Positions 27,499 through 34,684 of a DNA stretch of 64,000 nucleotides are shown piece by piece. Below the pieces are notes generated by a model. The model was not told where the DNA came from, did not search any database, and worked only from the letters and a program-made list of their open reading frames with translations. The stretch comes from an uncultured Microbulbifer sp. (GTDB lineage: Bacteria; Pseudomonadota; Gammaproteobacteria; Pseudomonadales; Cellvibrionaceae): assembly GCF_947504145.1 (NCBI RefSeq), contig NZ_CANNGQ010000002.1, forward strand, positions 682,001 through 746,000, written 5' to 3'. The position numbers and the translations under genes were made by a program. The number at the start of each line of letters is the position of its first letter. Within the stretch, counting starts at the first letter, position 1.

Positions 27499-29385
27499 AT
27501 GGCCAATTACTCCGCAGAAGATATCGAAGTATTGACGGGGCTGGACCCGGTGAAAAAACGCCCGGGCATGTACACCGAGACCACAAGGCCCAATCACCTG
27601 GCCCAGGAAGTGATCGACAACAGTGTCGATGAAGCCCTCGCCGGCCACGCCAAGAAAATCGAAGTGGTGCTGCACAAGGACCACTCCATATCCGTCAGCG
27701 ACGATGGTCGCGGTATGCCGGTGGATATCCACCCGGAACAGGGGCGCCCCGGGGTTGAGGTGATCCTTTCCACCCTGCATGCCGGCGGCAAGTTCTCCAA
27801 GAACAACTACCAGTTTTCCGGTGGTCTGCACGGCGTAGGGGTGTCGGTGGTGAATGCCCTGTCCAACGTACTGGAGGTGACCATTCAGCGGGAAGGCAAG
27901 GTCCACCGCATCGGCTTCCAGAATGGCGACAAGGTTTCCGACCTGGAAGTGGTGGGGGAATGCGGCAAGCGCACCACCGGCACCAGCGTGCGCTTCCTGC
28001 CAAACCCGAGTTATTTCGACTCTTATAAATTTTCTGTACCGCGCCTGCGCCACCTGCTGCGCGCCAAAGCGGTACTCTGCCCCGGCCTCAACGTCACCTT
28101 TATCAATGAGCAGGACGGTGAGTCCGACCAGTGGTACTACGAGGACGGCCTTAAGGACTACCTGGCTGCGGCCAACCAGGGCTGGGAAGTGCTGCCGGCA
28201 GAACCGTTTGTCGGTGTCTTTTCAGCGGAGACCGAAGCCGCGGACTGGGCGGTGCAATGGTTGCCGGAAGGCGGTGAAGTGACCGTCGAATCCTATGTGA
28301 ACCTGATCCCCACCGCCCAGGGCGGCACCCACGTAAACGGCCTGCGCGCCGGCCTGCTCGACGCCATGCGTGAGTACTGCGAGATTCGCAGCCTGCTGCC
28401 GCGCGGCGTCAAGCTGGGACCGGAAGACATCTGGAACCAGTGCTCTTACGTTCTCTCAGCCAAGCTCGCCGATCCACAGTTCTCCGGCCAGACCAAGGAG
28501 CGCCTGAGCTCCCGCGAAGCCACCGCGTTTATTTCCGGCGTGGCCAAAGATGCCTTCGGCCTGTGGCTGAACCAGCACACCGAAGACGGCGACAAGCTCG
28601 CCGAACTGTGTATCAGCAACGCGCAAAAACGCCTGCGCTCTGCAAAAAAAGTCGCGCGTAAAAAAGTCACTCAGGGCCCGGCGCTGCCCGGTAAACTCGC
28701 AGACTGCTCCAGCGGCGATACCAGCCGCTCGGAACTGTTTCTGGTGGAGGGTGACTCCGCCGGCGGCTCCGCCAAACAGGCACGCGATCGGGAGTTTCAG
28801 GCCATCATGCCCCTGCGTGGCAAAATCCTGAACACCTGGGAAGTGGACTCCAACGAAATCCTCGCCAGCCAGGAAGTCCACGACATCGCCGTTGCCCTGG
28901 GCGTTGACCCGGGTACCGATAATCTCGAAGGCCTGCGCTACAACAAAATCTGTATCCTCGCCGACGCCGACTCCGACGGCTTGCACATCGCTACCCTGCT
29001 GTGCGCCCTGTTCCTGCGCCACTTTCGCCAATTGGTCAGCAACGGCCACGTTTACGTCGCCATGCCCCCCCTGTTCCGTGTCGATATTGGCAAAGACGTT
29101 TATTACGCACTGGACGACGCCGAGCGCCAGGGTATCCTCGATCGCATCGCCGCCGAGAAAAAGAAAGGGAAGATTCAGGTAACCCGCTTTAAAGGCCTGG
29201 GTGAAATGAACCCCCTGCAGTTGCGCGAAACCACCATGGATCCGAATACCCGTCGTTTGGTGCAGCTGTATATCGACGACGGTGACAATAGCAATCAGTT
29301 GCTGGATATGCTCCTCGCGAAAAAGCGAGCGGGTGACAGGAAACAGTGGTTGGAAAGCAAGGGGAACCTTGCGGAAATCAGTTGA
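27499..29385 (+). CDS. parE: DNA topoisomerase IV subunit B
   Basis: KKRPGMYTETTRPNHLAQEVIDNSVDEALAGHAKKIEVVLH; LVEGDSAGGSAKQARDREFQAIMPLRGKILN. Confidence 0.97.
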   Translation: MANYSAEDIEVLTGLDPVKKRPGMYTETTRPNHLAQEVIDNSVDEALAGHAKKIEVVLHKDHSISVSDDGRGMPVDIHPEQGRPGVEVILSTLHAGGKFSKNNYQFSGGLHGVGVSVVNALSNVLEVTIQREGKVHRIGFQNGDKVSDLEVVGECGKRTTGTSVRFLPNPSYFDSYKFSVPRLRHLLRAKAVLCPGLNVTFINEQDGESDQWYYEDGLKDYLAAANQGWEVLPAEPFVGVFSAETEAADWAVQWLPEGGEVTVESYVNLIPTAQGGTHVNGLRAGLLDAMREYCEIRSLLPRGVKLGPEDIWNQCSYVLSAKLADPQFSGQTKERLSSREATAFISGVAKDAFGLWLNQHTEDGDKLAELCISNAQKRLRSAKKVARKKVTQGPALPGKLADCSSGDTSRSELFLVEGDSAGGSAKQARDREFQAIMPLRGKILNTWEVDSNEILASQEVHDIAVALGVDPGTDNLEGLRYNKICILADADSDGLHIATLLCALFLRHFRQLVSNGHVYVAMPPLFRVDIGKDVYYALDDAERQGILDRIAAEKKKGKIQVTRFKGLGEMNPLQLRETTMDPNTRRLVQLYIDDGDNSNQLLDMLLAKKRAGDRKQWLESKGNLAEIS

Positions 29386-29389
29386 TTTA

Positions 29390-29417
29390 AAAGCCTCGCA
29401 ACGCGGGGCTTTTTTTG
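29390..29417 (+). terminator. Rho-independent terminator of parE
   Basis: aaagcctcgc-aac-gcggggctttttttg. Confidence 0.85.
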
Positions 29418-29439
29418 GGCGTCAGGGGGTAAAAAGTGA

Positions 29440-29549
29440 TGCCTATATCTAGGCATGTGCCCAGTACAGGGGTATGGGTATATCTAGGCATTATGGGCGT
29501 ATATAGGCACCCCATGCCCAGATATAGGCAATATGCCTATATCTGGGGC
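29440..29549. repeat. Cluster of six spaced 16-bp quasi-palindromes, best copy TGCCTATATCTAGGCA
   Basis: Copies at 29440 TGCCTATATCTAGGCA, 29458 TGCCCAGTACAGGGGT (weak), 29475 TGGGTATATCTAGGCA, 29494 TGGGCGTATATAGGCA, 29515 TGCCCAGATATAGGCA, 29534 TGCCTATATCTGGGGC; start-to-start spacing 17-21 bp. Confidence 0.85.
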
Positions 29550-29563
29550 TTTTGAATAAAACT

Positions 29564-29570
29564 GTTAGCT
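29564..29570 (+). other. Candidate integron core site GTTAGCT upstream of the first cassette
   Basis: Matches GTTRRRY and the R' end of the attC sites below; immediately upstream of ORF 29586. Confidence 0.5.
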
Positions 29571-29585
29571 CCTCAGGAGTAGTGA

Positions 29586-29996
29586 ATGACAACCAATGAA
29601 GGAAGAGTTTATTTTGCTCTTGATGGAGAGGTTTTTGATCCCGATGAACTCACGGAATTTCTTGGCATAGAGCCAACCTCAATCCAACGGAAGGGAGCTA
29701 AAGTTCCAGGCAGAGTTCCGAAGACGAATTCGTGGCAATTCTCTACAGAAAATGTAGTTAACGATTACATCGATGTCTTTCACTTGTCTTCGCTGGTCAT
29801 TGAACAATTAAAACCAAAGAAGGATCTAATATTAAAGGCAAAGGAAAAATTCAGCGTACTCCCAAGACTTGAAGTTGTTCTATCTCTTTCTATGAATGAG
29901 CAGCATTCAACGCCCGCGATTGGATTTCACGTGGAAACAATGGAATTTTTAGGTGAAATTGGGGCGTTCGTTGATATTGATACATACAAGCACTAG
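29586..29996 (+). CDS. DUF4279 domain protein (cassette 1)
   Basis: RVYFALDGEVFDPDELTEFLGIEPTSIQRKGAKVPGR...SWQFST pattern of DUF4279. Confidence 0.8.
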   Translation: MTTNEGRVYFALDGEVFDPDELTEFLGIEPTSIQRKGAKVPGRVPKTNSWQFSTENVVNDYIDVFHLSSLVIEQLKPKKDLILKAKEKFSVLPRLEVVLSLSMNEQHSTPAIGFHVETMEFLGEIGAFVDIDTYKH

Positions 29997-30004
29997 TGCG
30001 AAAG

Positions 30005-30148
30005 AGCTAACAAGGCCGGGCAATTTGCTCCGGGCCTACGGCCCTCCGCGGGACAGCTTACCTTGTGCACGTTTTGCGCGGGTCGCTACGCTCCTATTAT
30101 TGCGCAAAACGTGCACAAGGTAAGCTGCCCCTGCCGGCGGCGTTAGCC
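30005..30148 (+). repeat. attC site 1 (~144 bp)
   Basis: AGCTAAC ... GTTAGCC ends; perfect 26-bp internal inverted repeat CAGCTTACCTTGTGCACGTTTTGCGC (30054-30079) / (30102-30127). Confidence 0.88.
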
Positions 30149-30170
30149 CCTTCTGGTTCTGAGACATAGA

Positions 30171-30953
30171 ATGGATATAGATTCTAAATCGATAAAAATT
30201 ATAAAAGCCAAATACTGGAAAAATGGCTGGATAGATTCAAGTAAAAGGAATTTATCTGGCTCCGATGCCGAACACCTTTCTAACCATGGCTGGAATTTTG
30301 GCACTGTAAAGCTTAGCCATGACCAAATAATCAGTGACGTTGTCGAAAAATGTAGAGATATGAGCTTAAAGGATGGCGCTGCATTATTGTCCCAGTCGCT
30401 TTCAACAAGAAAGGTTCAAGATCGATCATTTATTTCTTCTGTAATTCAAGCCTCAAATATGCCAAAACACTCGCACACTACAAGTGATCGATGTCCAATT
30501 TGCGGCTTATACAATGAGGTCGAGATAGATCAAGATGTCCTACTGTTTGAAAAATTAATGTGGGGCGGGGTTCGTTTAACAAATATTGAATATGTTTGGC
30601 TTGACTTGAAATTGATAGATAGAAATTGCCACCAGAAGGCCAACTTCGAGGATCTTATAAATCTGGTAATGAGTTTCGAGGCAAGGAGTGACAAGCTGTC
30701 AGCTTCAAAATTTGCCGCATCTCTTAAAGAAGTTAAAGGCAACAAAGCTGAGCGTGAAATTCTCTGTAGTATATTGGGTGTTTGCAATATCCTTCAGCAT
30801 CCTGAACATACAGGGTTCCTGTTGAAGTATCATCCGGCAAATGAGAGGCAACTGCCGAATCAGCACTTCATTGATTTAGAATGGCCCTTCTGCTGGTACA
30901 ACAGTAGCTTTGGTGTTAACAAAGGCGCATTGGAAATACTAACCAACAAATAG
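30171..30953 (+). CDS. Hypothetical protein, unknown function (cassette 2)
   Basis: 260-aa ORF filling the space between two attC sites; CPICG motif (TSDRCPICGLYNEVE). Confidence 0.75.
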   Translation: MDIDSKSIKIIKAKYWKNGWIDSSKRNLSGSDAEHLSNHGWNFGTVKLSHDQIISDVVEKCRDMSLKDGAALLSQSLSTRKVQDRSFISSVIQASNMPKHSHTTSDRCPICGLYNEVEIDQDVLLFEKLMWGGVRLTNIEYVWLDLKLIDRNCHQKANFEDLINLVMSFEARSDKLSASKFAASLKEVKGNKAEREILCSILGVCNILQHPEHTGFLLKYHPANERQLPNQHFIDLEWPFCWYNSSFGVNKGALEILTNK

Positions 30954-31022
30954 GGCTAACAAGGTGCTGCTAGGGACAAACCTACGCTACGCTCCGGTTT
31001 TCCCCAGAGCACGGCGTTAGAG
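30954..31022 (+). repeat. attC site 2 (~69 bp)
   Basis: GGCTAAC ... GTTAGAG ends; internal complementarity GTGCT/AGCAC and GGGA-AAACC/GGTTTTCCCC. Confidence 0.85.
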
Positions 31023-31040
31023 AAAACTAATCAAATCTTT

Positions 31041-31430
31041 ATGAGAACTATCAAGCTATTCTGGGTCGGAATTTTATTTGGATTGGCTGCTTGTGCATCA
31101 CTCCCAAAGAAAGAGTTCAGTAATATTGCTGATGTCGTAGAGGGGGTGTGGGGCTGGTCTGACACGAATGACTGTGTCGAGAATTACCATGAGATTGATA
31201 TATCAAATAATCGGAAAAGAATGACTATAACATTTAGAAATGTGGGGTTTGCTAGTGAAACCGATTCTAGGAAAAAGTTTGAATATCAGATTTTAATGAT
31301 TGGCCATAATATTATTTCAACGAAAATGGATGATGATCTAAGAGTCGATAAATTTGGTAACCCTGTGACGTGGAATTTAGTCTTGCTAGATAATAAGAAT
31401 TATTGTTGGCAAAGGGGGGTGGGAGCCTGA
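31041..31430 (+). CDS. Small putative lipoprotein, unknown function (cassette 3)
   Basis: MRTIKLFWVGILFGLAACASLPKK signal plus lipobox. Confidence 0.7.
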   Translation: MRTIKLFWVGILFGLAACASLPKKEFSNIADVVEGVWGWSDTNDCVENYHEIDISNNRKRMTITFRNVGFASETDSRKKFEYQILMIGHNIISTKMDDDLRVDKFGNPVTWNLVLLDNKNYCWQRGVGA

Positions 31431-31461
31431 GCAATGCACCGAAATAATCAACCGGTGCCCG

Positions 31462-31536
31462 CTCTAACAAGCAAAGCAGCAGGGCTGCGGCCGGGATATT
31501 CCATTGCGTGGCGCGTCCCTGTTTGCGGCGTTATGC
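31462..31536 (+). repeat. attC site 3 (~75 bp)
   Basis: CTCTAAC ... GTTATGC ends; GCAAA-CAGGG / CCCTG-TTTGC complementarity. Confidence 0.8.
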
Positions 31537-31566
31537 GTGCAAAGTAAGTCATTACAAGGAGAGAGC

Positions 31567-32079
31567 ATGAAAAGGTTGCTGGATGCTAATAGAGAGCTTC
31601 TGTTTTTTACTGTTGCTTTTATCGTTGTAATAGTGAATACAATAAACGTTCGTTACTTTGGTGAAAAGCTTGGTTCGTTTTCCGAAATCGCAATCCTGGC
31701 TGATTTCGCAATATTTCTACCGCTTCTGTATATTTTATTTTTCCGGTATGAGTTAAAGAAGGCGTTAGTGAAGTCTTTAGGTATTGCCTGCATTGGCTTT
31801 TGGGGAGCCAGTGTATTGGTGCCGGGAATACAGCAAGACATACTCTTAGACTATGGATTTATCCGTTACGTTGGGTTATCCGTTTTGGTGTTCATAGAAG
31901 TTAAGGTTACGTTTGTAATTTGGAAGGCGGTTTTTTCAGGTAAAGATCGAGATCAGATACTTAAAGAAGCCAAGGATCGAGCGGATATGCCGGAATGGGT
32001 TGCACGGCTCATGGTTTGGGAGGCCTCATTCTGGAAAAAGCTAGGTAGAGCCATCGGGATCGGCAAAAAGCGCAAATAG
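31567..32079 (+). CDS. Membrane protein, unknown function (cassette 4)
   Basis: MKRLLDANRELLFFTVAFIVVIVNTINVRYFG with several TM segments; start taken at the internal Met after a GGAGAG RBS. Confidence 0.7.
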   Translation: MKRLLDANRELLFFTVAFIVVIVNTINVRYFGEKLGSFSEIAILADFAIFLPLLYILFFRYELKKALVKSLGIACIGFWGASVLVPGIQQDILLDYGFIRYVGLSVLVFIEVKVTFVIWKAVFSGKDRDQILKEAKDRADMPEWVARLMVWEASFWKKLGRAIGIGKKRK

Positions 32080-32086
32080 TACGTAT

Positions 32087-32199
32087 CCCATACAAGGCCG
32101 GGCAGTTTGCTCCAGGCGTTCGGCCTTCCGTACTCCCAATATCGCGCAAAACGCACATGACATGCACAGGGTAGGCTACCCCTGCTGGCGACGTTAGCT
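32087..32199 (+). repeat. attC site 4 (~113 bp, degenerate left end)
   Basis: ACAAGGCCGGGCAGTTTGCTCCAGG (near copy of attC 1) ... CTGCTGGCGACGTTAGCT. Confidence 0.75.
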
Positions 32200-32214
32200 G
32201 CACAGAGTAGTTTC

Positions 32215-32523
32215 ATGAGAAAGAAACAATATAAAGCATCAGAAATTTACGAAGAAATTGGCCCAAATCTGGTCAGCTGCTGGATCACTTTATATTTAAT
32301 GGGAGTTCTCTTTCTCGGATCTCTTGCTTCTACAATCCTTGGTGGCATTGGCTACGATACGATTTTGCTAGTTTTCTCGGGGTTGATTCTCGTGCAGGCC
32401 ATACGCGGAATCGTACAATTGAGGGGTTTACGAGTAAGGCTTCAGAACGATCCTGAATCGGTTCGCATGTCAGATGTACTGGCTGCACCAAGTTTCAAGG
32501 GTATTTATGCCTTCGTCAGGTAG
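32215..32523 (+). CDS. Small membrane protein, unknown function (cassette 5)
   Basis: 102-aa ORF with two hydrophobic segments. Confidence 0.65.
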   Translation: MRKKQYKASEIYEEIGPNLVSCWITLYLMGVLFLGSLASTILGGIGYDTILLVFSGLILVQAIRGIVQLRGLRVRLQNDPESVRMSDVLAAPSFKGIYAFVR

Positions 32524-32650
32524 CAGGTTGTTCTACGGTCCTTCAGGCCTTCGCGGGGCGACTTACCTTGTGCGCATTTTGCGCGGCGCGCTGCGCTCCC
32601 AAGTTCGCACAAGATGTGCATAGCATTGATCGCCCCTGTTACGGGGGTAT
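32524..32650 (+). repeat. Degenerate attC-like site 5
   Basis: GGGGCGACTTACCTTGTGC resembles attC 1 GGGACAGCTTACCTTGTGC; CTTGTGCG (32567-32574)/CGCACAAG (32606-32613) inverted repeat; canonical ends not clear. Confidence 0.5.
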
Positions 32651-32676
32651 GCAATATTTCAATCAGATGGAGCTCG

Positions 32677-33338
32677 AAATGAAATTCTTGGTCTTCTTGG
32701 GCACCCTGCGGGATAGTACGCCTCCGACGCCGGCACGCCTGGGGGTTAGGGTTACAGAAGCAGTTTTGGAGTGCCTGAAAAGTCGATATGCCGAACATGA
32801 CGTTGAGTTGGTTGATGTTCTGGATTATCCGCCAGAATCCGTCTTCAAGCCGCACTTTGCTTACCCTCGGAGCAAGGCACCTTCCGCTCTAAACCAATTG
32901 GCAGAAAAGATAGAGAGTGCCGATGGATTCGTTTTGGTTAGCCCTGAATATAACCATTCAATGAGTCCGGCGCTTGCCAACTTGTTGAACCACTTTGGCA
33001 GTTCCTTGTTCTCCTACAAGCCAAGTGCGATTGTTACCTATTCAGCAGGCCAGTGGGGCGGGATGCGTGCAGCGGTCGGCATGCGCACGTTTCTTTCAGA
33101 GCTGGGCTGTCTGCCGGTTTCTGCAATGATACATGTGCCCAAGGCTCAAGAAATATTTACGGCGGATGGCTCATTGCAGGCGCAAGAGGATCAAGGCTCC
33201 TGGTTCGATTATTTTGGTCGGACATTTAACCAACTGATTTGGTGGGCACAGGCAGCGAAGGGCCATCGAGCGCAGGTTGATCCGCATAAGCTGGTAAGAG
33301 ATTTCAAGACGGACCCATCCCAACGCAATGCACCATAA
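32677..33338 (+). CDS. NAD(P)H-dependent FMN reductase family protein (cassette 6)
   Basis: MKFLVFLGTLRDSTPPTPARLGVRV; FVLVSPEYNHSMSPALANLLNHFGSSLFSYKPSAIVTYSAGQWGGMRAA flavodoxin-like motifs. Confidence 0.85.
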
Positions 33339-33363
33339 TCGGGTGTTATGCGTCATCGAGTTT

Positions 33364-33564
33364 ATGAGTGTCGAGATAGATACAATTAGACAACTGGAGC
33401 AGAGAAAGCAGTTTCTTTTGTTTCCAGTATCAATTGCGTTTACGTGTGTTTGGATAGCGCTGCATGTATTCCATGTGAGAAACCACATCTATGTATCGGG
33501 AATTCACCTTTGGGGTGTTTCGAAGTACATCTGGCTGACTACCACTTTCGTGCAAGTGCAATAA
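33364..33564 (+). CDS. Small membrane protein, hypothetical (cassette 7?)
   Basis: MSVEIDTIRQLEQRKQFLLFPVSIAFTCVWIALHVF; preceded by core-like GTTATGC at 33345. Confidence 0.45.
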   Translation: MSVEIDTIRQLEQRKQFLLFPVSIAFTCVWIALHVFHVRNHIYVSGIHLWGVSKYIWLTTTFVQVQ

Positions 33565-33613: not shown

Positions 33614-34684
33614 TTACTTTAGACTCCCCCTGATGAACACAATCATGTCGTTTAGAGTATCCGGTGCGTCTGCATCAAAACAGCTGCCCAGGTACTCATT
33701 GCACCCGGTGTCCAGAAACGCGTGATTTTTGTCGGGATACTCTTTGTACTTCACCCGTTGGCCGGCGGAATCAAGTTTTTCTACAAAGGCGTTTACTGCC
33801 GCAGGCGGTGTTGTGGTGTCTTTGCTACCTACACTTGCAAAGATCGGGGGCAGCTTTTTATCTTCGGCACTGGGGATCAGATGTAGTGGGGATGCTGCGC
33901 GGTAGAGGCGGGGGCTATTTACGATGTTGTACCCCTTACCAAAAATTCCGCGGGGTTCGGCACCACCCATTTTCCAGAAGAAGTTTCCCGCGGACTCCAA
34001 GCCCCGCTTTGCTCGACTTTCCAGGTCAAATACACCATAGCTGAGAACCGCCGCCTGCACGCCCAGCGCTCCGTGTTCAGCTATTTGCTCCGCTGTTTTC
34101 CCGGGGGGAATGTACGTCGGCCGGAATGCGAGATTATCCGGTGAAAATGGCTTGCTGCTCAGCTTGTCTCCTGCCAACACCACCATGGCGCTCAGGTGAC
34201 CACCGGCGCTATCGCCCGTGACTACGATGCGTTCTGGGTCACCGTGATATTGGGCAATATGCTCTTTTACCCACAGGACGCCACCGAGGGCATCTTCGAT
34301 GATGTCGTCCATGGTGGTGGTGTTGTTGTTATCACCCAGAAGTCGATAGTTCATGTTTGCCACGACAAATTCTCCGTGGCTGGCCAGGTATTTTGCCGTG
34401 GACTCCATAATGCTGTTGTTGTTGATCAGCCAGCCTCCGCCGTGATAGATCACTACGACCGGGTAGTTTTGGCGCCCGGTATCAGGAACGAATATGTCGG
34501 CCGTCAGGGTTATATTGCCGGCCCTTGCCCAGCGGATATCCCGGTGTGCGAGGAGGGGCGTTGGAATTCCTGCTGGTGATACGGTGGGTGCCTCTGCGAG
34601 TGCGGAAGGGGTGCCAGGGATGAGCAGAAAAACAGCAATGATCAGTGACTGAAGGTGGGATGGCAGGGGCATGAGTGACCTCAC
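33614..34684 (-). CDS. Alpha/beta hydrolase (carboxylesterase/HSL-like), secreted
   Basis: Signal peptide; VVIYHGGGWLINNNSIM; VTGDSAGGHLSAMV; DKNHAFLD. Confidence 0.85.
   Translation of the reverse strand: MRSLMPLPSHLQSLIIAVFLLIPGTPSALAEAPTVSPAGIPTPLLAHRDIRWARAGNITLTADIFVPDTGRQNYPVVVIYHGGGWLINNNSIMESTAKYLASHGEFVVANMNYRLLGDNNNTTTMDDIIEDALGGVLWVKEHIAQYHGDPERIVVTGDSAGGHLSAMVVLAGDKLSSKPFSPDNLAFRPTYIPPGKTAEQIAEHGALGVQAAVLSYGVFDLESRAKRGLESAGNFFWKMGGAEPRGIFGKGYNIVNSPRLYRAASPLHLIPSAEDKKLPPIFASVGSKDTTTPPAAVNAFVEKLDSAGQRVKYKEYPDKNHAFLDTGCNEYLGSCFDADAPDTLNDMIVFIRGSLK

Follow-up and report, generated by a model that had tools for sequence, protein, structure and literature searches.

A gene cassette array downstream of parE in Microbulbifer: a probable attI platform of a distributed chromosomal integron

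The stretch of DNA analysed here (the window, 64,000 nucleotides) covers positions 682001–746000 of contig C2 in the genome of an uncultured Microbulbifer (G000; 4.36 Mb, 18 contigs). Between parE, which ends at 29385, and an esterase gene on the minus strand lies a block of AT-rich open reading frames (ORFs) on the plus strand, which alternate with palindromic sites. The GC content of five cassette ORFs (29586–32523) is 38–44%, against 58% for the window. An initial annotation described the block as up to seven AT-rich cassette ORFs in a cluster of attC sites lacking integrases (CALIN), inserted after parE. Much of this description stands: the array consists of attC cassettes that vary between species, no tyrosine recombinase is found in the window, and by the operational definition, which asks that no intI be nearby, the array after parE is a CALIN. 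It is incomplete, however, and the array is not an orphan, as the same genome has a complete intI on contig C8, and the array starts at a copy of the attI core of that integrase. This core (29553–29567) and the palindromic leader that precedes it had been overlooked. The usual image of a CALIN as an orphan array lacking attI, which is not part of the formal definition, does not fit such a locus; intI adjoining attI, as in a complete integron, is found at C8 and not in the window.

The attC sites were searched for with a covariance model, R1, built from 16 attC sites beside the integrase on C8 only, with no window site included. The model finds five sites in the window, three of which have intact boxes, and the complementary R''/R' boxes are those of an integron cassette array. 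The four sites of the initial annotation are returned with identical ends, while a decayed fifth had escaped it. For a true cassette, the first seven bases at the 5' end and the R'' box of that cassette have to be reverse-complementary. The agreement is exact in cassettes 1–3 (GTTAGCT/AGCTAAC, GTTAGCC/GGCTAAC and GTTAGAG/CTCTAAC), as in cassette arrays, and has been lost through mutations in cassettes 4 and 5. A strict R''/R' pattern (GTTRRRY, near-perfect box complementarity) matched no site in the window, and an Rfam scan of it gave no attC match, only chance ones. The bottom-strand DNA of attC 1 and attC 2 folds better than shuffled sequences, that of attC 3–5 no better. Stem quality thus declines with distance from 29564, which is the pattern expected of parE-proximal insertion and distal decay. 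Judged by sequence, the proximal end of the array looks recombination-competent, while the distal cassettes appear to have no functional attC.

Five of the ORFs proposed as cassettes alternate with attC sites. ORF6 and ORF7 have no intact attC; the former is probably an old cassette without attC and the latter probably the last, fossil cassette. No function could be assigned to cassettes 2–5 and 7 with PADLOC, NCBIfam or Pfam, and PADLOC returned zero matches among the seven ORFs, that is, none of the known defence genes by which a phage-defence island is recognized.

The TIGR02249 profile has a single match above its cut-off in the genome, C8:41465–42406 on the minus strand, which scores 411.9 bits against a cut-off of 265. 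A LexA-type box, CTGTTTTTATATACAG, is located between this intI and the first cassette and is followed by attI; it is kept with small changes in an alignment of seven genomes. R1 places around 100 attC sites in the genome, in the window as well as on C3, C4, C6, C8, C9, C11 and at either end of C7. The C8 attI ends in a 15-base core, TGAATAAAACTGTTA, of which the 4.36 Mb contain five exact copies where 0.008 would be expected; the other four are at C2:711553 (window position 29553), C4:267914, C7:7726 and C1:74. Four of the five (C8, C2, C4 and C7) head correctly oriented attC arrays, and the one on C1 points towards a contig end that is 73 bases away. Array heads run off contig ends on C8, C7 and C1, and tails start at contig ends on C3, C6 and the right side of C7, which would amount to five arrays with five heads.

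The cores are preceded by leaders, which stop short of intI and are of two types. The type A leader, of about 240 bp, is common to the C8 attI and to the satellites (cores away from intI) on C7 and C1, and the type B leader, a run of imperfect palindromes, is present in the window and on C4. The leader repeat ATGCCTATATCTAGGCAT occurs in this genome in the window, at the C4 array head and in one further place only, a lone perfect copy at C2:617808–617825, outside the window and away from known arrays. In the terminal palindrome of the type B leader, 94.8% of cells are paired over 18 leaders, with 5 double-change cells, compared to 19–56% in slide controls. Where examined, the leaders lie after the terminator of the upstream gene, with the exception of C4, where that gene's end and the leader overlap. 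The features of the window locus are collected in Table 1.

Table 1. Features of the parE locus in window coordinates.
Feature	Position	Strand	Evidence and remarks
parE intrinsic-terminator-like hairpin, AAAAGCCTCGCAACGCGGGGCTTTTTTT	29383–29415	+	Placed alike in orthologues; satellite leader begins directly 3'
Type B leader with imperfect palindromic repeats (ATGCCTATATCTAGGCAT and its variants)	29439–29552	+	Aligned with G010, G025, G027, G028 and M. mangrovi
Terminal palindrome of leader, 14-bp stem, adjoins attI core	29517–29547		Fold z -6.3; pairing kept
attI core TGAATAAAACTGTTA	29553–29567	+	Same as core of intI-adjacent attI on C8; junction signature
Crossover point of attI core	between 29564 (G) and 29565 (T)	+	Junction signature
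Cassette 1 ORF, DUF4279 protein, 136 aa	29586–29996	+	PF14106, 71.7 bits
attC 1, intact	30005–30148	+	R1 142.1 bits, E 1.8e-36; fold z -8.7
Cassette 2 ORF, 260 aa, CPICG motif, no family	30171–30953	+	Family searches
attC 2, short, R boxes intact	30954–31022	+	R1 19.3 bits, E 0.0035; fold z -2.9; R'' agrees with cassette start
Cassette 3 ORF, 129 aa, lipoprotein-like signal (LAAC), no family	31041–31430	+	Translation
attC 3, short, R boxes intact	31462–31536	+	R1 17.0 bits, E 0.015; R'' agrees with cassette start
Cassette 4 ORF, 170 aa, hydrophobic segments by eye, no family	31567–32079	+	Translation
attC 4, mutated R'', decayed stem	32087–32199	+	R1 18.4 bits, E 0.006; fold not above shuffles
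Cassette 5 ORF, 102 aa, hydrophobic segments by eye	32215–32523	+	88% relative over 43 aa near G029 intI
attC 5, decayed, R'' and R' mutated (TAGCAGG / GGTATGC)	32518–32652	+	R1 61.9 bits, E 1e-14
ORF6, NADPH-dependent FMN reductase family, GC 52%	32679–33338	+	PF03358, 101 bits; PDB azoreductases
ORF7	33367–33564	+	74% identical to ORF of C6 array of same genome (L143:6968–7174)
Esterase gene, right flank, chromosomal frame	33614–34684	-	Also beside parE in M. harenosus, array absent there

The exact core is present in up to six copies per Microbulbifer genome, with a reversed control pattern near zero. In a set of 146 genomes from the order, multiple copies are confined to Microbulbifer, and two single matches elsewhere are at about chance level. 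A strong IntI match is found in 43 of 48 Microbulbifer genomes, and no genome has intI beside more than one of the collected cores. For 65 heads from 19 genomes, attC sites are located downstream in 224 cases, upstream in one and on the opposite strand in one. Orthologous flanks of up to 3.65 kb are shared between species at six loci, where the cassettes are largely unrelated. When orthologues are compared, identity is 57–88% in the leader and 0.98–1.0 in the core, and falls to about 0.5, the background, just past the crossover.

At the parE locus, leader and flanks, the right flank included, are common to the window and to four further genomes, those of other species (G010, G025, G027 and G028), in which the cassettes differ and no cassette DNA of at least 200 bp is shared with the window. 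In M. harenosus, parE is directly followed by the esterase side, and leader, core and attC are all absent. The parE 3' ends of 30 genomes were also taken irrespective of the core, which avoids selection by it. The leader is present in seven of them, and attC lies within 1.5 kb in all six leader genomes with sequence beyond, against none of the 23 others. Of the seven leaders, one is followed by a shortened core (G033) and one by a contig cut off at the core. An attI-type core with its leader thus follows parE in six of 30 genomes, with the seventh contig ending at the core, and the position is not that of a one-off insertion; conservation of the whole ORF block across the genus, which would have spoken against an inserted array, is not seen either, as the site is kept in part of the genus and the cassettes are not. 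In a parE tree of the 30 genomes, the seven do not form one resolved clade, and a single gain with losses or several gains both fit. In M. elongatus, an attC (L052:19916–20045, 57.6 bits) and a second, weak one lie about 8 kb downstream of parE, and the locus contains neither an exact nor a near copy of the core.

A second IntI clade, 61–70% identical to the first, occupies the same home locus, and in most members examined its core is TGAATAAACTGTTA, one base shorter. The short core is present in four to five copies in many genomes of the second clade and in none to two in long-core genomes. Short-core and long-core satellites are found at common orthologous loci, one of them the parE locus, where G033 has a short core; this core was considered as a decayed copy with a one-base deletion, which was rejected since the integrase of G033 has an identical core. 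Long and short satellites number 31 and 8 in long-type genomes and 13 and 30 in short-type genomes (Fisher p 8.5e-6, phylogeny ignored). By hand count at five shared loci, the numbers are 22 and 1 against 5 and 12. Five genomes (G025, G042, G002, G007 and G033) have two to five long-core heads and no intact long-type integrase was found in them (intI fragments only in G042); satellites appear to outlive their integrase here and to turn into true CALINs. G026 (L158, L395) has an integrase of each type next to the respective core, with a stop in one integrase frame.

The variable bases of the GTTANNN of the first cassette agree with the R'' box of its own attC in 81 of 101 heads, while shuffles give a mean of 5.7 and a maximum of 15. 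These junction signatures show that cassettes were inserted at the satellite cores. One G027 satellite begins with a cassette that is also present in the intI array (539 bp, 99.8% identity), and the shared segment is exactly one cassette with GTTA at both ends; in G028, a satellite and the intI array have a cassette in common at 100% identity. Comparison of 287 cassettes gave 26 pairs with at least 80% identity over the whole cassette, and in 12 of these the two members come from separate array pieces within a genome; in G000, some such pieces are contigs and may be parts of a single array. Other pairs have the same ORF (84–91% DNA identity) and a different attC body: L222/L243, L227/L245, L215/L234, L217/L234 and G000_C9 (L145)/L259. 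Similarity in these pairs ends at the R'' box TAACAA, which suggests attC swapping at R'' and might bear on how cassettes are formed. Three arrays of G010 (L221, L222 and L224) contain around 1.7–1.9 kb of 98% identical DNA, which exceeds cassette length and is possibly an insertion element or an intron.

The reading favored here, with a probability of about 0.83, is that the window locus belongs, as one of several platforms, to a distributed chromosomal integron in which a single IntI serves several attI sites in trans. The one intI gene with its LexA box, at the home locus on C8, would serve attI sites fixed elsewhere, including that after parE. Circular cassettes released from one array or another would enter, through attI x attC recombination (G^TTA), any attI that happens to be in use, and arrays at different loci would consequently draw on one cassette pool. 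The platforms, each a leader with its core, would be passed on vertically while cassettes turn over. Insertion at satellites by the remote IntI is indirectly supported by the junction signatures, by the sharing of whole cassettes and by the match between core type and integrase type. IntI presumably acts in trans to this day, and the leader may contain regulatory or accessory sites.

Several points weigh against this reading, which is built on sequence comparison. Three of the G000 arrays leave contig ends, and the pairing of heads with tails is therefore a reconstruction. The array in the window, short and with decayed attC sites at its distal end, may be a little-used copy. Heads were gathered by their core sequence, except in the parE-flank comparison, and the association of satellite type with integrase type takes no account of descent. 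At shared loci, some satellites mismatch the resident integrase (one in G019, three in G002 and two in G033). G025, G007 and G042 retain satellites without an intact cognate intI, which means that conservation of a platform needs no current service.

That same retention, found in certain genomes that lost the cognate intI, and a 94-aa intI fragment beside one core in G042, would be expected if every locus once had its own intI, since lost, and the arrays were dead CALINs. Such an origin is nonetheless improbable: no trace of intI is found in about 4 kb upstream of the other satellites, and the core type follows the resident integrase. Moreover, the cores are invariant while first cassettes are unlike between sister species, indicating that acquisition went on after the platforms were fixed. 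Insertion by the home integrase at chance chromosomal sites, with the window array as one event, has a known mechanism both for CALINs (PMC8618304) and for secondary sites (PMC10127599), but it is a very improbable explanation here, as chance sites would have neither an identical 15-mer with a homologous leader nor orthology between species, and the empty M. harenosus site lacks core and leader. Least probable of all is the dispersal of pieces of one large array by segmental duplication or rearrangement, to which the assembly breaks within arrays and the attC sequences common to different arrays could point, because the same pattern is seen in the single-contig genomes G001, G010, G017, G033 and G047, and because flanks and leaders of satellites differ while core and cassette junctions are precisely placed.

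The proposed distributed integron resembles the sedentary chromosomal integron (superintegron) of Vibrio cholerae in its TIGR02249 IntI, the divergent arrangement of intI and attI, the LexA-type box, the near-identical host-specific attC sites and the number of cassettes, around 100. Unlike in V. cholerae, the cassettes are distributed over five attI-headed arrays instead of one, and genomes of the genus contain as many as six or seven attI cores. As at the attG sites of Loot et al. 2024, reportedly non-classical and widespread to go by the title, IntI would place cassettes away from the home attI; unlike those sites, as far as the title tells, the Microbulbifer sites are exact attI cores and orthologous between species.

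As an attC cluster with no intI nearby, the window locus is expected to be labelled a CALIN by software of the IntegronFinder type. It differs from a CALIN in having an attI core and a conserved leader at its head and in being part of a set matched to the resident integrase. CALINs, roughly as frequent as complete integrons, have been described as degraded ones (IntegronFinder 2.0, PMC9024848); off-target insertion, loss of intI and rearrangement have been proposed as their origins (PMC8618304). Those of Xanthomonas similarly occupy conserved positions away from the home integron, in that case at ilvD, and are stated to be mobilisable in trans, which provides a parallel, while attI at their heads, as found at the window array, is unmentioned in the accessible part of the source (PMC12444791). 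A search of the open literature, subscription papers excluded, returned no account of chromosomal integrons with several attI sites and none of integrons in Microbulbifer. Standard software is blind to arrays with a remote attI because attI sites outside class 1 are not searched for by IntegronFinder (PMC9024848).

The CALIN-like arrays of Microbulbifer form a system of remote attI copies, apparently supplied by one integrase. It is somewhat likelier than its negation that this system is a multi-slot integron, with about six fixed attI platforms per genome at most, each of which would provide a separate first position and be kept by selection, the spacer being retuned by one base when the integrase type is replaced, so that independently placed entry points would be open to one cassette pool. 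The long and short cores at the same loci, together with two integrase types, constitute a natural experiment on attI recognition, and chromosomes with multiple attI sites make both the cost of attI x attI rearrangement and the value of several first positions testable.

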